Of a DNA stretch of 28,515 nt, positions 1-5,958 are shown piece after piece. The position numbers and the translations under genes were made by a program. The DNA lies in the IMG/VR virus record IMGVR_UViG_3300009157_000040, positions 1-28,515 of that record; one strand, given 5' to 3'. The notes below the pieces were generated by a model that saw only the letters and a list, made by a program, of their open reading frames with translations, was not told the DNA's origin and searched no databases. Positions within the stretch are counted from its first letter, which is position 1. Each line of letters starts with the position of its first letter. Source of the DNA: a virus.

Positions 1-24
1 AAGTCTGAACGGTGCCGTTTCCAT
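1..24 (-). CDS. Partial CDS, N-terminal fragment only (8 codons)
   Basis: An ATG at 24-22 overlaps the TAA stop of the radical SAM gene by one base, the same TAATG junction used repeatedly in this operon. The visible residues are METAPFRL, then the window ends. Too little remains to suggest a function. Position suggests it continues the HxD/radical SAM operon and may be translationally coupled to it. Confidence 0.4.
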
Positions 25-1217
25 TATCGTCTCACCTCTGCAATAGCTTGCACTCGAGTATCTGTGTGATCGCCGTGCGAATCCCCATGTGGGGAATCAG
101 CATGAGATATGCTCTGTTTCCCAGCACTTAGGAAAGCTCGTTCCCACTTCTCTCGGTCAGGATGCAATGACGTTGGAGTCTCCCCGAGTTCCAACATCAA
201 GTTCTCGTAGTGCTCAAAGATGGCCATGATGACGCCACAGTGTTCTGTCCTGTTGCGCCAATCACCATCGATTCCAGTGCCTGGACACTCGCCCTTACAC
301 ATGAGGAAGAAGCGGCACCCCTTGCAACCACCATACTTGTAGGGCGTGTTGTAGAGCGCATGTTGTCGCTCGATACCTGTAGTGTCGGACTTTGTCCAAT
401 CGACGCCCATCTTGTTCGTGCGATTGCAATTCGTCAGCTGTCCTTGGCCGTTAATGCCTTGAACTGCAGCGGTAGCTAACGAGTCACAGGCATGCCAAAC
501 ACAGTTCGTAGGCTCTCCAGAGCGCTTTAGGAGAGCCTTGTATTCCCTGAAGTTGTTAAACTTGAGGTGAGTGAACTGCCTCTCGAGGGACATGAGTTGC
601 TTCATACGTTCGATAAGGAGCGGCATATCGACGCGTAGTTTAGAAGCCTTGACCCCGTCAACCTCTAGATAATGCAAATTCACCCACCTCAACCCGAGCT
701 TGTCCAATCTGAGGAACCAGTCGCAGAGCATCTGGAACGATTCCTCGTCGCAGTTGCCCTTCCAAAGTGTGGTAATCAGAGAGACGGCGAGTCCCTCTTG
801 GTGGAGCTTCTCGATAGCATCCGTTGTTCTCTTAGTTGCCACGCGAGTTTCTTCCTGTGTTCCTGCTGCGCGCGCATCAGAGCATCTTTCCGGGCCATCG
901 CAAGAGATGCCGATATGCGTTCGATATCTCTTAAACAAATCAATGTGCGCCTCCGTAATGAGTGTAGCGTTAGTCTGGATACCAGAGCTACCGTCACGCT
1001 CAAAGCTGTACTTCAGTATCTGCTCGACGCGACTGAACGGAGCTAGAAGTGGTTCACCTCCGTGCAAAGAGAATGACCCATGCTTGTCCAGCTCGGCGCG
1101 CACCTTCTCCCAGTCCCATGGGACGTTGACGTTCTTCGCGTCACGCATGGGATTCTCGTAGCAATAGGTGCAACCAATGTTACATGCTACGCCGACTGGA
1201 TTGACCTCTACGCTCAT
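24..1217 (-). CDS. Radical SAM/SPASM enzyme with C-terminal HxD motifs
   Basis: 397 residues. The CX3CX2C cluster ligand of radical SAM enzymes is at C12, C16 and C19, followed by GGEP at 53-56, QTNATL at 81-86 and SCDGP at 105-109, as in anSME-like peptide and protein maturases. A SPASM domain follows: C239, C244, C264, the signature CX2CX5CX3C at C298/C301/C307/C311, and C327, which should bind auxiliary iron-sulfur clusters. The ATG at 1217 is chosen because it forms an ATGA overlap with the preceding gene and lies just ahead of the CX3CX2C motif; the open frame extends 60 residues further, but that extension overlaps the 85-residue gene and is Arg-rich shadow. The C-terminus (372-386) carries HAD, HGD, HGD and HTD, matching the repeat protein two genes upstream. 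By family it reductively cleaves SAM to start radical chemistry on a peptide or protein; the HxD protein as substrate is inference. Confidence 0.93.
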   Translation of the reverse strand: MSVEVNPVGVACNIGCTYCYENPMRDAKNVNVPWDWEKVRAELDKHGSFSLHGGEPLLAPFSRVEQILKYSFERDGSSGIQTNATLITEAHIDLFKRYRTHIGISCDGPERCSDARAAGTQEETRVATKRTTDAIEKLHQEGLAVSLITTLWKGNCDEESFQMLCDWFLRLDKLGLRWVNLHYLEVDGVKASKLRVDMPLLIERMKQLMSLERQFTHLKFNNFREYKALLKRSGEPTNCVWHACDSLATAAVQGINGQGQLTNCNRTNKMGVDWTKSDTTGIERQHALYNTPYKYGGCKGCRFFLMCKGECPGTGIDGDWRNRTEHCGVIMAIFEHYENLMLELGETPTSLHPDREKWERAFLSAGKQSISHADSPHGDSHGDHTDTRVQAIAEVRR

Positions 1218-1471
1218 GCTGTCAACCGGACGTTCGCGGTGCCGCCGTTGACTCGCAGGAATCCCGCCGCCACGTCGACGCCGGATTCCGAGAATGCCGC
1301 TCCGGTAGCAACGACGCTGTTCTTCGCGCCGGTCATGTCGAAGTTGTTGCTGATGTCGATAGAAGTTGCTGTTCCTGGAGTTACGAACAGTCGGCACTTC
1401 CGACTCGGCAGCGCGCGAACGACGTTATCCGCGATTGCGTGAGTGATTCCAATGCTGAGTGATGCAGGCAT
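1214..1471 (-). CDS. Small hypothetical protein between the HxD protein and radical SAM enzyme
   Basis: 85 residues, rich in Ala, Val, Thr, Ser and Gly with alternating hydrophobic residues, suggesting a small beta-rich fold. It has a single Cys (C27), no signal peptide and no membrane segment. It starts four bases after the HxD gene's stop, with GGAG a few bases upstream inside the end of that gene, and its stop overlaps the radical SAM start as ATGA. The three genes are therefore very likely co-translated. It could be a small virion decoration or fibre-tip protein, or an accessory to the modification. I do not recognise the family. It replaces the Arg-rich reading of this DNA in the radical SAM frame. 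Confidence 0.75.
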   Translation of the reverse strand: MPASLSIGITHAIADNVVRALPSRKCRLFVTPGTATSIDISNNFDMTGAKNSVVATGAAFSESGVDVAAGFLRVNGGTANVRLTA

Positions 1472-1474
1472 GTC

Positions 1475-2416
1475 CTACTCCACGAATTCTGGTTGAACGA
1501 TAGATGCTATGTCACCGTGGTCGTTGTGCCCTGTGTCAACATGGTCCACGTCGATGTGAGCCACGTCGTTGAATGGTGTATCACCATGACCATCCTTGTG
1601 ATCATTGTGACTTACGTCACTGTGTGCCACGTCCTTGTGAGCCGTGTCATCATGGTCGTTATCAGTATGATCAGAATGCGCTGTGTCTTGATGTGCCACA
1701 TCCTGATGCGCTACGTCACCGTGTGAATCCCCGTGCGCAGTGTCATTGTGAATGTCCTGATGTGGGAAGTCAGTATGGATAGGCGCGTAGTCGTTATGAT
1801 ACCGACCATCATAGTGGTCTGAGTATTGCGATACTTGATCACCGTGAGCATTGTCTCCATGCCCATCGAGGTGCGAAGTGTTCTGGTCGTTATGTGTATC
1901 AACGTGCGTAACGTCTGTATGACTATCCTTGTGCGCTGTATCGTTATGGTCGTTGTCCTGATGGTCAACGTGAGTAACGTCTTGATGAGCAACGTCCGTA
2001 TGAGTGTTATCAGTATGGTCCTGATGTGATGAGTCTGAGTGCGCTACGTCTGTATGAACTAAGTCACCGTGTCCGGTATCGCTGTGAGTCGCATCCGTGT
2101 GGTCAACGTGAGCCACATCCGTATGACCCTGTCGATGCCCTTTGTCAGATGCAAGCCAAGCGATTCGCTTCTGATTATCAACCCAAACACTACCAGCAAT
2201 ACCAGTCGTGGTCTTGATGAAAGTATTCTCGATGCGCCGCTCCTGACCACTTGAATCGATATAATGAAGATAGTCTCCTTCAATCCACAATGACCCAGGA
2301 ATGGCACTCGGCACATCTGTGACAAATGAACCAATATACCTCCACTCGCTACCGTCATCCGGAACGAAGTGGAGATAATCGCCTTCTATCCAAAGGCTAC
2401 CTGGGAGCTTAGCCAT
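1475..2416 (-). CDS. His-x-Asp repeat protein, probably fibre-associated
   Basis: 313 residues in two parts. Residues 1-92 contain three related modules, PGSLWIEGDYLH at 5-16 and 40-51 and a degenerate GSVWVDNQK near 75-83, each followed by a short beta-like stretch. Residues 98-302 hold about 42 HxD motifs, mostly in the pentad HxDxx with occasional direct HxDHxD pairs; the middle residue varies (T, V, S, G, Q, N, K, L, Y, I, D). There is no Cys anywhere, so Cys-based thioether links within it are excluded. His uses both CAC and CAT and Asp both GAC and GAT, pointing to selection on the protein rather than recent DNA expansion. It sits directly after fibre-like genes and before a radical SAM/SPASM enzyme. 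Metal binding, a pentad beta-helix, or modification at His or Asp are all possible; none is shown. Confidence 0.9.
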   Translation of the reverse strand: MAKLPGSLWIEGDYLHFVPDDGSEWRYIGSFVTDVPSAIPGSLWIEGDYLHYIDSSGQERRIENTFIKTTTGIAGSVWVDNQKRIAWLASDKGHRQGHTDVAHVDHTDATHSDTGHGDLVHTDVAHSDSSHQDHTDNTHTDVAHQDVTHVDHQDNDHNDTAHKDSHTDVTHVDTHNDQNTSHLDGHGDNAHGDQVSQYSDHYDGRYHNDYAPIHTDFPHQDIHNDTAHGDSHGDVAHQDVAHQDTAHSDHTDNDHDDTAHKDVAHSDVSHNDHKDGHGDTPFNDVAHIDVDHVDTGHNDHGDIASIVQPEFVE

Positions 2417-2880
2417 TAGCTCGTTGCGAACTTATCAGCACCAACAGGAATGACCATACCCGACCGCACGTAGATTGTTGCTGGTCGATTGGCATTGCTT
2501 CCAATCTTGTTGGCATTGTCTGCCACGAACGAGATGTCACCTGTCATCCCAAGAGCAGAGATGCCAGTGAGTGTTCCACCTGTGACGTTAATTCCATTCG
2601 CGTTCTGAATGGACATCGTCCCGAGGCCAAGATTCGTCCGGATACCAGCCGCAGTGGTCGCGCCAGTTCCACCACCGGCAATCGAGAGAACCTTGTCAAT
2701 CCACTGCGCACCATCCCACTCCTGAAAGACGTTGGTCGCGCGGAAGTAACGGATAGAGCCGACTGGTTGATTGGACGGCCCACCCGAGAACATCTGTGCC
2801 GAGTCGTTCAGGCGAGCGTCGACCTCCGCCACGAAGTCGGTGTAGAGACTCGCCAGCGTAGGCAGAGACCAATCAGCCAT
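2416..2880 (-). CDS. Tail-fibre-like protein with phage fibre repeat
   Basis: 154 residues. An N-terminal part (about 1-65) includes GSIRYFRATNVFQEWDGAQW, a type of stretch common in phage fibre and appendage proteins. It is followed by a Gly/Thr/Asn-rich segment with GGGTGATT near 89-96 and TNLGLG near 102-107, the classic collar of trimeric tail-fibre repeats. Thus it is probably a short fibre or fibre segment. Its start overlaps the stop of the upstream coiled-coil gene (TAATG) and its stop overlaps the HxD gene start the same way, tying the HxD protein to the fibre module. Family identity is inferred from motifs only. Confidence 0.8.
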   Translation of the reverse strand: MADWSLPTLASLYTDFVAEVDARLNDSAQMFSGGPSNQPVGSIRYFRATNVFQEWDGAQWIDKVLSIAGGGTGATTAAGIRTNLGLGTMSIQNANGINVTGGTLTGISALGMTGDISFVADNANKIGSNANRPATIYVRSGMVIPVGADKFATS

Positions 2881-3382: not shown

Positions 3383-4465
3383 CTAGTTCGAAATCTCGAA
3401 GAATCCTTCGATTCTGACATCAAACGCATTTGCTATGCTTGAAACAAAGGAGGCGGAGAAATCCTGTCGAAACAGAATCATGTCCGTAGCCTGAACGGTT
3501 ATGATGCCAGTCTCATAAACAGAACCCATCCTGAAGTGAACCGATCCGAGGCCGACTGTCGGACAACTGAATCCACCGGGAACTTTTATCTTAAGCTGTG
3601 TTCCCATGCCAGCACTGGTTGATGTGTTCAGCAATCGAATGCTGTAGAACAGAGTCTTTCCGATTATCATGTATCGGAATGAACTCATATCTCCTGCATC
3701 CACCGTCCACGTGCCAGCACTCGCTGTGAAGTCACCGGCGACATATGGATTCGCTACCCAATAGCCCATTGCAGTGGCACGAGTAGCCTCTACAATTGGG
3801 ACAGCAAAGGTAGCACCTGTGGAATTGATTACCAGACGATCAGTGCCGCCAGTCTTAAATCTGATAACTGCACCACTGATATTGACACCGCCAACGCCGT
3901 TCGAGGCGATGTTAAATCCGTCTGCAACAAAACCCGCTGTTGCAAAGGCAGCCGACGTTTGAATCAGAAAGGTGCGCTGGATACCTTGGTCATTCGCAAA
4001 CGTCAGGCCTGTGTAAGCACCTGCAGCGGCGTTTGGATTGGACATGTCCAGGAGGTTTGGACCGGCAACGTTGGAGTTCAGCCTGTGAACAGTAGTGCCA
4101 ACACCAGTAATAACCATACTGCCGCCGCGGGAGATGCTGAACACCTCGACCGGAGTGGCGTATGAGTCATCCAATCCACGAATCCTGAGGAATCCGTCAA
4201 CTGCACCAATCTCCCAATTCTTCGAGCCGACAGCTTGGTCAGTCTCGTTGAAACGCAACTTCGGCTCTACGCCTGAATAGATGTTCGCACCAGTCCAGAC
4301 GTTGTTACCATCACCTGATGGCATACCTGCAGGAAGCCTCGCGGGGTCGATGGTTCCCTGCGTGAGAATGCTCGCGTCCAGTGGGAGCGGGTTGAAGACG
4401 ACGCCATCAGTCGAGTATTCGAAGATGTGCGTGCCTTCGTTCCACTTCATCCAGCGAGTTGCCAT
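3383..4465 (-). CDS. Tail fibre or receptor-binding-like protein
   Basis: 360 residues. The N-terminus (about 1-50) contains RWMKWNEGTHIFEYSTDG, then LPAGMPSGDGNNVWTGANIYSG, typical of virion-anchoring segments leading into a fibre shaft. The middle is Gly/Ala/Thr/Asn-rich with repeated beta-strand-like stretches, including MSNPNAAAGAYTGLTFANDQ. The last 130 residues look like a compact beta-domain that could bind the host surface. The start overlaps the stop of the 497-residue tail protein (TAATG). A TGTTCA-type palindrome lies inside it at 4075-4091. The receptor-binding role is inferred from composition and position, so confidence in the exact function is moderate. Confidence 0.78.
   Translation of the reverse strand: MATRWMKWNEGTHIFEYSTDGVVFNPLPLDASILTQGTIDPARLPAGMPSGDGNNVWTGANIYSGVEPKLRFNETDQAVGSKNWEIGAVDGFLRIRGLDDSYATPVEVFSISRGGSMVITGVGTTVHRLNSNVAGPNLLDMSNPNAAAGAYTGLTFANDQGIQRTFLIQTSAAFATAGFVADGFNIASNGVGGVNISGAVIRFKTGGTDRLVINSTGATFAVPIVEATRATAMGYWVANPYVAGDFTASAGTWTVDAGDMSSFRYMIIGKTLFYSIRLLNTSTSAGMGTQLKIKVPGGFSCPTVGLGSVHFRMGSVYETGIITVQATDMILFRQDFSASFVSSIANAFDVRIEGFFEISN
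4075..4091. repeat. AGTTCA-GCCTG-TGAACA palindrome
   Basis: Copy with one outer mismatch, inside the fibre gene on the minus strand. The ten-base core is intact. Confidence 0.6.
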
Positions 4466-5958
4466 TAGACTATTCCTCGAGCTTTCCAGCTACAGACGCA
4501 AGTGACTCGTGATCCAATGCTGTCATAAACGAGCACCTTGAACTCTGTGGGGTTCGGCACGTCTATGAAGTCGTAGATAGCATTGAGCGGCTCTGGACTC
4601 TTTGTTGGAGTAACCGTTATCGAGTCGACGTCTTTGAAGTCCTTGTTGAACACGACCTGGGTTCCACCCACGTCGGTCGATAGCGCATTGACGAATCCCG
4701 AGTCAATCTCTTTCTTGACGTCAAGAGAAAGCGTCAAATCCGAGAAGACTGCTAGAGCCTTCGCATTACTCGACGTGAAATCAAACGTCAATCGAGCATA
4801 TCGAAAGCTCGTAATGAAAATCGACGCGCCGACTACTGGAGGCTCCCACGTGACGTTGTCGAGCGAAGTCTCCACTGAGCACACAACACTGACAACGCCT
4901 GCACTATTCAGCTGCTGTAGTAGCCAGCTGATGTTCATGATGACGTTGTTGAATATGGCTCCGTAGTCGATGGTCTCCCGATAGAGTGCATCGAGCGCAC
5001 CGGGCTGGATATAGAGTGGAAATCCAGCACCTACTTGGTCAGACGGCTGGTCCCAAGCGTCCTCGGTGAAGTGTGTGGTCCACGTGTCATCCTCATCAAT
5101 ACAGACAAGGAGTTTGCCGGTGTTAGCAGCAAACCAAACGTATTCTTCAGTGGCCCATCCTTGCGCATCCGTGTAGTCCCAACCAAGCGCAGGAGAACCA
5201 TAGATGAGAGCGTTTTCGTGGTATCCACCTAGAAGCGAGTGACGAATGTCCTCAAGCTCAAAATCGGGAGGCTGTCTGACATCAGCACTGGTCGTTGCTC
5301 TTGGACTACGATTTCCTGCAATGTCAACAGCCTCAACACCATACGTGAACGTGCCTGCTGCAGCCTCAAACCAGACGAAGAACTCGCCCGCGATGGAACC
5401 AATCAGGACGTTGTTTCGATAGACGTCGTAGTGATTGATTCTCCATGTCGAGTTCGGTCGATTGTAGCGCAGCAGGACGTTGTTGTCGATAACTTGTGCA
5501 TTGATCGAAGGCGTCGGAATAGACGGAATCGTTACGAGGACTGCAAGGAAAGCCGTCGAGTAGGCTCCCAGTCCATTCCGAGACCTGACCAGATACGTAT
5601 GATTACCCACCAGAATCGGGTCCAGTCGCACTTCTTGTTGCGGCGTCGCGGCCACGAAAAATGCAGTCTCCCAGACCGTTCCCTTGCGAACCTCGTAAGA
5701 CGCGGCATTCTGAGCACCTGACCAGAAAATCCTAAGGACCGACTTCTGAAGAATCTCATAACCGATAACCGTTGGCGACGTCGGAATCGCGCCTATCGTC
5801 CCAGACGTGTCCGTGATTTGCCGGACGATGGGGTCTACGGTTGCTTGCAGCTCACCAATCGTCTGGACGAAGGCAGTCAGTATCTGATACAGCTTGGGGT
5901 CTGTATGCTGATAGCCTTCAACCAGCGAGGCGAACGTGGTGATGCGAGTCGTAGACAT
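4465..5958 (-). CDS. Tail protein with fibronectin III-like modules
   Basis: 497 residues. Two FN3-like modules are visible: about 66-150 (SYEVRKGT, TYLVRSRNG) and about 153-235 (HYDVYRNNVLIGS, YGVEAVDIAGN), each with the Tyr and hydrophobic pattern of FN3 strands. Residues 340-430 include SVETSLDNVTWEPP and RYARLTFDF, resembling beta-sandwich domains in tail-tip proteins. The N-terminal 50 residues look helical (LYQILTAFVQTIGELQATV) and may dock to the nozzle. It overlaps the upstream nozzle-like gene and downstream fibre gene by one base each. A structural role at the tail tip or as fibre adaptor is likely; adhesion through FN3 modules is inference. Confidence 0.85.
   Translation of the reverse strand: MSTTRITTFASLVEGYQHTDPKLYQILTAFVQTIGELQATVDPIVRQITDTSGTIGAIPTSPTVIGYEILQKSVLRIFWSGAQNAASYEVRKGTVWETAFFVAATPQQEVRLDPILVGNHTYLVRSRNGLGAYSTAFLAVLVTIPSIPTPSINAQVIDNNVLLRYNRPNSTWRINHYDVYRNNVLIGSIAGEFFVWFEAAAGTFTYGVEAVDIAGNRSPRATTSADVRQPPDFELEDIRHSLLGGYHENALIYGSPALGWDYTDAQGWATEEYVWFAANTGKLLVCIDEDDTWTTHFTEDAWDQPSDQVGAGFPLYIQPGALDALYRETIDYGAIFNNVIMNISWLLQQLNSAGVVSVVCSVETSLDNVTWEPPVVGASIFITSFRYARLTFDFTSSNAKALAVFSDLTLSLDVKKEIDSGFVNALSTDVGGTQVVFNKDFKDVDSITVTPTKSPEPLNAIYDFIDVPNPTEFKVLVYDSIGSRVTCVCSWKARGIV

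Follow-up and report, generated by a model that had tools for sequence, protein, structure and literature searches.

An HxD-repeat protein and a radical SAM/SPASM enzyme at one viral locus

The window analysed here is the whole of the IMG/VR virus record IMGVR_UViG_3300009157_000040, 28,515 bases long. Near one end it carries a module of three genes, all on the minus strand: one for a protein with repeated His-Xaa-Asp (HxD) triplets, one for an 85-residue protein, and one for a radical S-adenosylmethionine (SAM) enzyme with a SPASM domain (Table 1). A first-pass annotation of this DNA had described the repeat protein as a Cys-free chain of 313 residues with about 42 HxD motifs, the enzyme as bearing the full CX3CX2C and SPASM signatures, and the three genes as tightly joined. 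Our analysis agrees on all of these points: the repeat protein has no Cys and 42 HxD motifs by count, both sets of enzyme Cys are present, and the enzyme ATG at 1217 overlaps the stop of the 85-residue open reading frame (ORF), while the enzyme stop overlaps the ATG of a further gene. Two parts of the module were added to that description, an HxD tail on the enzyme itself and the start of this third conserved gene at 24-1. An ORF of 457 residues from 1397 was rejected as the enzyme; it is a run-on, and relatives start at the same Met as the 397-residue form.

The enzyme has the Cys of a radical SAM core (C12, C16 and C19, CX3CX2C) and those of a SPASM maturase (C244-X14-G259-X4-C264, C298-X2-C301-X5-C307-X3-C311 and C327). 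They are invariant in 30 diverged homologues, down to 27% identity, save for an insertion in one locus, L016. An AlphaFold2 model, for which the input contained no rows from the phages collection, reached a predicted local distance difference test (pLDDT) score of 86.8 and has the fold of known SPASM maturases. Over about 320 residues the nearest solved structures are anSME (Z 28.7) and ChlB with bound leader (Z 27.9), both ranking ahead of sactipeptide enzymes and viperin. All 30 enzyme members match models of cyclophane-forming and other peptide maturases; the families that the enzyme matches best are peptide maturases, among them many that form cyclophanes (AmcB, DynA, YhhB, GrrM), though none of these scores reaches its cut-off. 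Scores for other families also fall short, with 68.5 bits for the anSME family TIGR03942 (cut-off 349), 29 bits for the HxsB model of the His-Xaa-Ser systems (cut-off 370) and 47 bits for viperin NF038283 (cut-off 180). Because its scores lie so far below the curated cut-offs, the enzyme appears to represent a separate family and belongs to none of the named cyclophane families.

The repeat protein of the window contains 45 His, 42 of which have Asp at +2, compared with a mean of 8.0 HxD and a maximum of 17 in 10,000 shuffles of the same composition. Its residues 1-90 are modelled by AlphaFold2 at a pLDDT of about 70-90, and this N-terminal part matches phrog_15005 (E 8e-4); the HxD region has a pLDDT of about 40, with no fold readable. 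HxS repeats are absent from the window protein, and no sequence match to it was found among solved structures. Related N-termini occur in 21 of the 39 substrates compared. The phage substrates are 208-1421 residues long, with about 13 to 101 triplets in a C-terminal HxD part that in nearly every phage case stops 12 residues or fewer short of the protein end and is joined to several N-terminal types lacking detectable similarity to each other. The HxD part thus behaves as a mobile end module.

Homologues of the HxD protein and the enzyme occur together in IMG/VR contigs, and the cultured Thermus phages phiMa, Cumys and phiLo all have the pair. The HxD gene of Cumys and phiMa lies 8 bases upstream of the enzyme gene, and their products share about 42% (radical SAM enzyme) and about 38-41% (HxD protein) identity with those of the window. 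In Cumys the two genes come after genes whose annotations are baseplate protein and tail collar fibre protein. Three HxD proteins, with as many as 101 HxD, are encoded by phiLo, whose enzyme gene is 4.4 kb off on the other strand. PHROG searches with ten of the larger HxD proteins returned mostly unknown families, with weak tail-fibre matches for two. Gene order, N-terminal domains and homology make the HxD protein a likely tail-associated or fibre-associated virion protein.

Table 1. The module and its neighbours in the window, with the basis for each assignment
Feature	Position	Strand	Basis
Radical SAM/SPASM enzyme, 397 residues	24..1217	-	ATG at 1217; PF04055 E 3e-13; alignment of 30 homologues
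CX3CX2C SAM-cluster motif, residues 12-19	1161..1184	-	Sequence; three Cys invariant across 30 homologues
SPASM auxiliary-cluster region, C244 to C327, CX2CX5CX3C at 298-311	237..488	-	Sequence; Cys invariant
HxD tail of enzyme (HADSPHGDSHGDHTD), residues 372-386	60..104	-	Conservation in 30 phage enzymes
HxD-repeat protein, 313 residues, putative substrate	1475..2416	-	Homologues in IMG/VR and Thermus phages
Folded N-terminal part of HxD protein, three PGSLWIEGDYLHYID-like beta units, probable virion attachment	2129..2416	-	AlphaFold2; phrog_15005
HxD region, residues 98-303, C-terminal	1508..2125	-	42 HxD; codon test; aromatic-X-[D/N] rule
Accessory protein, 85 residues	1214..1471	-	Orthologues in L002-L006
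First 8 codons (METAPFRL) of conserved partner gene, cut by contig end	1..24	-	L002 partner begins METAPFRL
Tail-fibre-like protein, directly upstream of HxD gene	2416..2880	-	phrog_10316 tail fiber protein E 2e-6, others
Tail protein (context)	4465..5958	-	phrog_1727 'tail protein and host specificity' E 8e-13

Pairing with the enzyme and selection on the triplets

Pairing of the HxD protein with the enzyme is general in phages. Viral contigs were scanned with a DNA pattern for four HxD in step, blind to the enzyme, which gave at least 120 stretches, a sample neither complete nor random. Tandem low-complexity repeats such as HQDLR also fit HxD, and a diversity criterion removed them. Numerical criteria defining a true HxD-rich protein were set after the scan, and the gene content of most loci had been glimpsed beforehand through a crude radical SAM regular expression; the criteria were thus objective, not blind. 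Among the matches listed, a radical SAM gene lay in the same record for 36 of 40 true HxD-rich loci versus 2 of 49 controls, these being records with chance or low-complexity matches (Fisher p = 5e-18). When near-identical HxD proteins were merged, 30 of 31 groups among those matches included a member with the enzyme; the remaining group, L100, is a 10-kb contig that stops partway through its HxD ORF. The distance from enzyme gene to HxD gene is at most 100 bp for about 30 of 42 enzyme genes and at most 2 kb for 41 of them. The first-pass annotation, which had proposed this pairing, had named HxD proteins occurring mostly without the enzyme as the outcome that would count against it, and the opposite was found.

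L016 had appeared to be an exception to the pairing and was rejected as one, as reading of the locus shows a diverged enzyme gene overlapping the HxD gene (L016:6582-7910). Pfam misses this enzyme because of an insertion in the cluster motif, which places more than three residues between the first two Cys. A collagen-like HxD protein with 12-13 HxD was seen in L039, L068 and L090; its relative lies in a 105-kb record, L096, that has a radical SAM gene beside other HxD genes.

Across 43 phage HxD regions, Asp or Asn stands at +2 after 96% of His, 57% of Phe, 33% of Tyr and 30% of Trp, compared with 4-10% after other residues. The difference between Phe, Tyr or Trp and the others gives p = 7e-120, and p = 1e-136 outside HxD triplets. 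HxN is frequent in some phages (L007, L009, L030, L144). A codon test of the window against four relatives, counting identical, synonymous and nonsynonymous codons, gave 78/78/4 for His and 88/70/3 for Asp, so these codons change almost only synonymously, while the middle residue (34/34/93) and the linkers (75/67/139) change freely. Two of the four nonsynonymous His changes are to Phe.

Three-residue cyclophane-forming enzymes (3-CyFEs) form a bond between an aromatic ring, which may be that of His, Tyr, Phe or Trp, and the beta-carbon of the residue at i+2; in known members this carbon is bonded to C2 of His or C3 of Tyr, and Asp and Asn are among the i+2 residues (PMC11002830). Read from sequence, the phage motif is the Omega1-X2-X3 rule of these enzymes, with His, Phe, Tyr and Trp enriched before Asp or Asn at +2 in a substrate encoded beside the enzyme. 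This rule and the selection on His and Asp, with its aromatic replacements, together argue for the cyclophane rule and are not the behaviour of a metal site.

An alternative in which the HxD chain is an unmodified metal-binding fibre, resembling the iron-binding HxH sites at phage tail tips, and the radical SAM enzyme has another substrate, we regard as quite improbable. His and Asp are metal ligands, and iron-binding HxH motifs have been described in tail fibres (PMC11705849), which share with the HxD proteins a repeated His-rich motif in phage tail proteins. Those motifs, however, have His at both ends, whereas here Phe, Tyr or Trp may stand in for the first His, and Phe cannot bind metal; the adjacent radical SAM gene, and a pairing of 36/40 versus 2/49, would be left unexplained.

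The partner gene and cellular homologues

The third core gene of the module is the conserved partner downstream of the enzyme, not the 85-residue ORF. That ORF, which the first-pass annotation had counted as a coupled member, is indeed present and coupled in the window, but its orthologues are confined to the closest relatives (L002-L006), and it is missing between the two genes in most other loci. As a leader or recognition partner it was rejected as a core part, since most loci lack it. Family searches gave no match to the 85-residue protein.

The partner gene is complete in relatives and is found in 70 of 72 cellular loci and most viral loci; in some members it is apparently fused to the radical SAM gene. 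Its alignment (for example L002:7194-8528) shows conserved Cys in GYPxCC and HxPCxxxC motifs, and in many phages the protein ends in a methyltransferase-like domain (DLGCGTG). The partner of L188 is apparently fused to a DUF364 heavy-metal-chelation domain. The name DUF483, given to the partner in the paper on Cumys, was not confirmed, as the Cumys protein matched nothing in Pfam at E values of 0.01 or less.

The 72 cellular homologues of the enzyme, from many phyla, came from a scan of GTDB that used a closer subset of enzymes, the alignment of all 30 being too diverged for a scan. Most of them have no HxD tail of the kind found on the phage enzymes, and 42 of the 72 have an HxD-rich ORF near the enzyme gene. 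In a tree the cellular enzymes fall on one side of a branch; the rooting and the long-branch rows are unsure, and we claim no direction of transfer. Some of the cellular HxD proteins are 69-155 residues long, and in L200, L203, L208, L211, L183 and L185 (Acidobacteriota and others) such short peptides adjoin a radical SAM gene or a fusion of it with the partner. They look like uncatalogued precursors of ribosomally synthesized and post-translationally modified peptides. Cellular HxD proteins at L171:8752-9348, L186:8175-8504 and L239:2079-3542 have a twin-arginine translocation (Tat)-type SRRxLL-like signal, suggesting, as far as sequence can tell, modification in the cytoplasm and export in folded form. 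Many Tyr-X-Asp triplets were seen in L179.

A peptide beta-hydroxylase of the aKG-HExxH family (TIGR04267) is encoded in 31 of the 72 cellular loci and in one phage, L064; all six examples tested, cellular and phage, score above the TIGR04267 cut-off. The phage hydroxylase (L064:7636-8478), encoded between the HxD gene and the radical SAM gene, scores 70.5 bits against a cut-off of 40. The founding aKG-HExxH enzyme, which is fused to the ChlB radical SAM domain, hydroxylates Asp and His in a cyclophane-bearing peptide (PMC12636437).

Proposed triplet chemistry and its alternatives

We infer that, within the triplets of a tail-associated protein, the enzyme probably forms a bond between His and the beta-carbon of Asp. 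Four results favour this chemistry: the aromatic-X-[D/N] rule, the near absence of nonsynonymous change in His and Asp codons, anSME and ChlB as nearest solved structures, and the peptide beta-hydroxylases of homologous cellular cassettes. The module would then be a phage-encoded protein-maturation system, whose substrate has a small folded N-terminal part followed by a long C-terminal chain, otherwise lacking structure, made up of about 42 aromatic-X-Asp triplets. The radical SAM/SPASM enzyme would abstract hydrogen at the X3 beta-carbon, X3 being Asp or Asn, and this carbon would then be bonded to the Omega1 ring, that of His or at times of Phe, Tyr or Trp, giving a three-residue cyclophane. 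Each triplet is expected to lose about 2.016 Da, which for the window protein would come to at most about 85 Da. Such rings would stiffen the chain, with a possible role in stability or receptor contact. The predicted disorder of the unmodified chain is weakly suggestive of a region shaped by crosslinks, the AlphaFold2 model having low confidence in the repeats. The first-pass annotation had listed carbon-carbon links, epimerisation and other chemistry; this list can be narrowed, and a carbon-carbon cyclophane is favoured over epimerisation by the aromatic-X-[D/N] rule, by the absence of Cys and by the aKG-HExxH hydroxylases that homologous cassettes encode.

The closest known systems are alike in part. 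Triceptide maturases (XncB, OscB/GrrM, YxdB, HaaB, YhhB) are SPASM radical SAM enzymes encoded beside their substrates, which have an aromatic residue at i, His and Tyr being known first residues, and a residue such as Asp or Asn supplying the beta-carbon at i+2 (PMC11002830). Unlike theirs, the phage substrates are tail-associated proteins with about 13 to 101 triplets instead of short leader/core precursor peptides, and here the enzyme lies far below the curated families and has an HxD tail, and the ring product is a prediction. ChlB, or ChlBH with its fused aKG-HExxH domain, is a near-best structural match over 322 residues, its hydroxylation of His and Asp requires the cyclophane (PMC12636437), and hydroxylases occur in the homologous cassettes; it shares 18% identity with our enzyme, the hydroxylase here is usually a separate gene and occurs in one phage only, and no counterpart of the partner protein is named for ChlB. 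The His-Xaa-Ser systems likewise combine a radical SAM gene with a repeat protein of His-Xaa triplets, but the third residue here is Asp or Asn instead of Ser and the HxsB score is below cut-off.

The kind of enzyme is known, and so is the kind of bond, if the cyclophane proposal holds; the open-access literature searched gave no precedent for its use on a phage structural protein, for this number of sites in one chain, for the enzyme's HxD tail or for the constant partner. Cyclophane chemistry, which the literature searched places in small peptide natural products and not in virus particles, would then extend to large virus proteins, each chain bearing dozens of rings, and covalent rings would be added to what is known of phage tails. 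We put at about even the chance of a wider picture, in which the outer part of tail-associated proteins in diverse phages is a long chain of radical-made rings (His, Tyr, Phe or Trp to Asp or Asn), a covalently imposed virion structure, and HxD proteins, some apparently Tat-exported, are made in many bacterial phyla by the same enzyme family together with the partner and, in many cases, a beta-hydroxylase. The proposal can be tested, as T. thermophilus HB8 is a host of phiMa, Cumys and phiLo and a fixed mass loss is expected at dozens of sites. The enzymes appear to accept varied middle residues and four aromatic residues, so they could serve as protein-stapling catalysts.

Several points weigh against the cyclophane proposal. 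The enzyme scores 35-83 bits against cut-offs of 310-450 for the curated cyclophane families (AmcB, DynA, GrrM, YhhB, FxsB, XyeB), and known 3-CyFE systems use short precursor peptides, not some 40 sites in one structural protein. The HxD tail and the methyltransferase-like part of the partner are left unaccounted for. Three contigs of 36-78 kb (L039, L068, L090) encode a short HxD protein with no radical SAM gene detected, the criterion used identified no HxD-rich ORF in 30 of the 72 cellular loci, and the aromatic rule is weak in the cellular homologues (Phe, Tyr or Trp versus others, p = 0.02). The virion location, a weak point, is drawn from gene order and homology.

Among the alternatives, the enzyme could modify the triplets by other chemistry: oxidation or dehydrogenation of the Asp beta-carbon in the manner of anSME, epimerisation, or radical SAM chemistry combined with methylation by the partner. 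We consider this unlikely. anSME oxidises a side-chain beta-carbon of a protein, that of one Ser or Cys of a sulfatase; it is structurally as near as ChlB, with the best solved-structure match and the SPASM layout, the phage partner ends in a methyltransferase-like domain, and the weak family scores span many chemistries. No sulfatase was found here, and the TIGR03942 score is below cut-off. The need for an aromatic residue two positions before Asp or Asn, however, would be unexpected for oxidation or epimerisation of Asp by itself, and fits a bond between the two residues.

A 2024 paper on Cumys and phiMa describes a radical SAM module with two unknown neighbours and suggests that it modifies DNA, and homologues of the enzyme and the DUF483 protein stand beside deazapurine DNA-modification genes in some cyanobacteria (PMC11437467). 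This is the same module as ours, with HxD gene, radical SAM gene and DUF483-annotated partner. The word 'histidine' is absent from the text of that paper, so the repeats were probably not considered in making the guess. With a SPASM architecture, the anSME/ChlB fold, and HxD proteins and peptide beta-hydroxylases in 42 and 31 of the 72 cellular cassettes, DNA modification is highly improbable and fits less well than protein stapling, which would suggest a function for this Thermus-phage module.

The HxD tail of the enzyme (HAD..PHGD..HGDHTD) is disordered in the AlphaFold2 model, and in the 30 phage enzymes H377 is invariant and D379 at least 90% conserved. Nearly all of these enzymes end in PHGD..HTD, and this ending, in the window and at the enzyme C-termini of L002-L168, copies the substrate motif. 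Possible roles for the tail are those of self-substrate, docking element and assembly signal. That all HxD motifs, the enzyme's included, are a docking or assembly code gathering enzyme, partner and fibre, with the modified site elsewhere in the fibre, would accord with this shared ending, but we give it next to no weight, as forty copies, strict selection on His and Asp and aromatic substitutions exceed docking needs, and the cellular enzymes mostly lack the tail, yet many have HxD neighbours. In L065 (10403-13316) two consecutive radical SAM genes follow one HxD gene; the first encodes 556 residues with 15 Hx[DN] inside, and the second has no tail as far as the locus reads.

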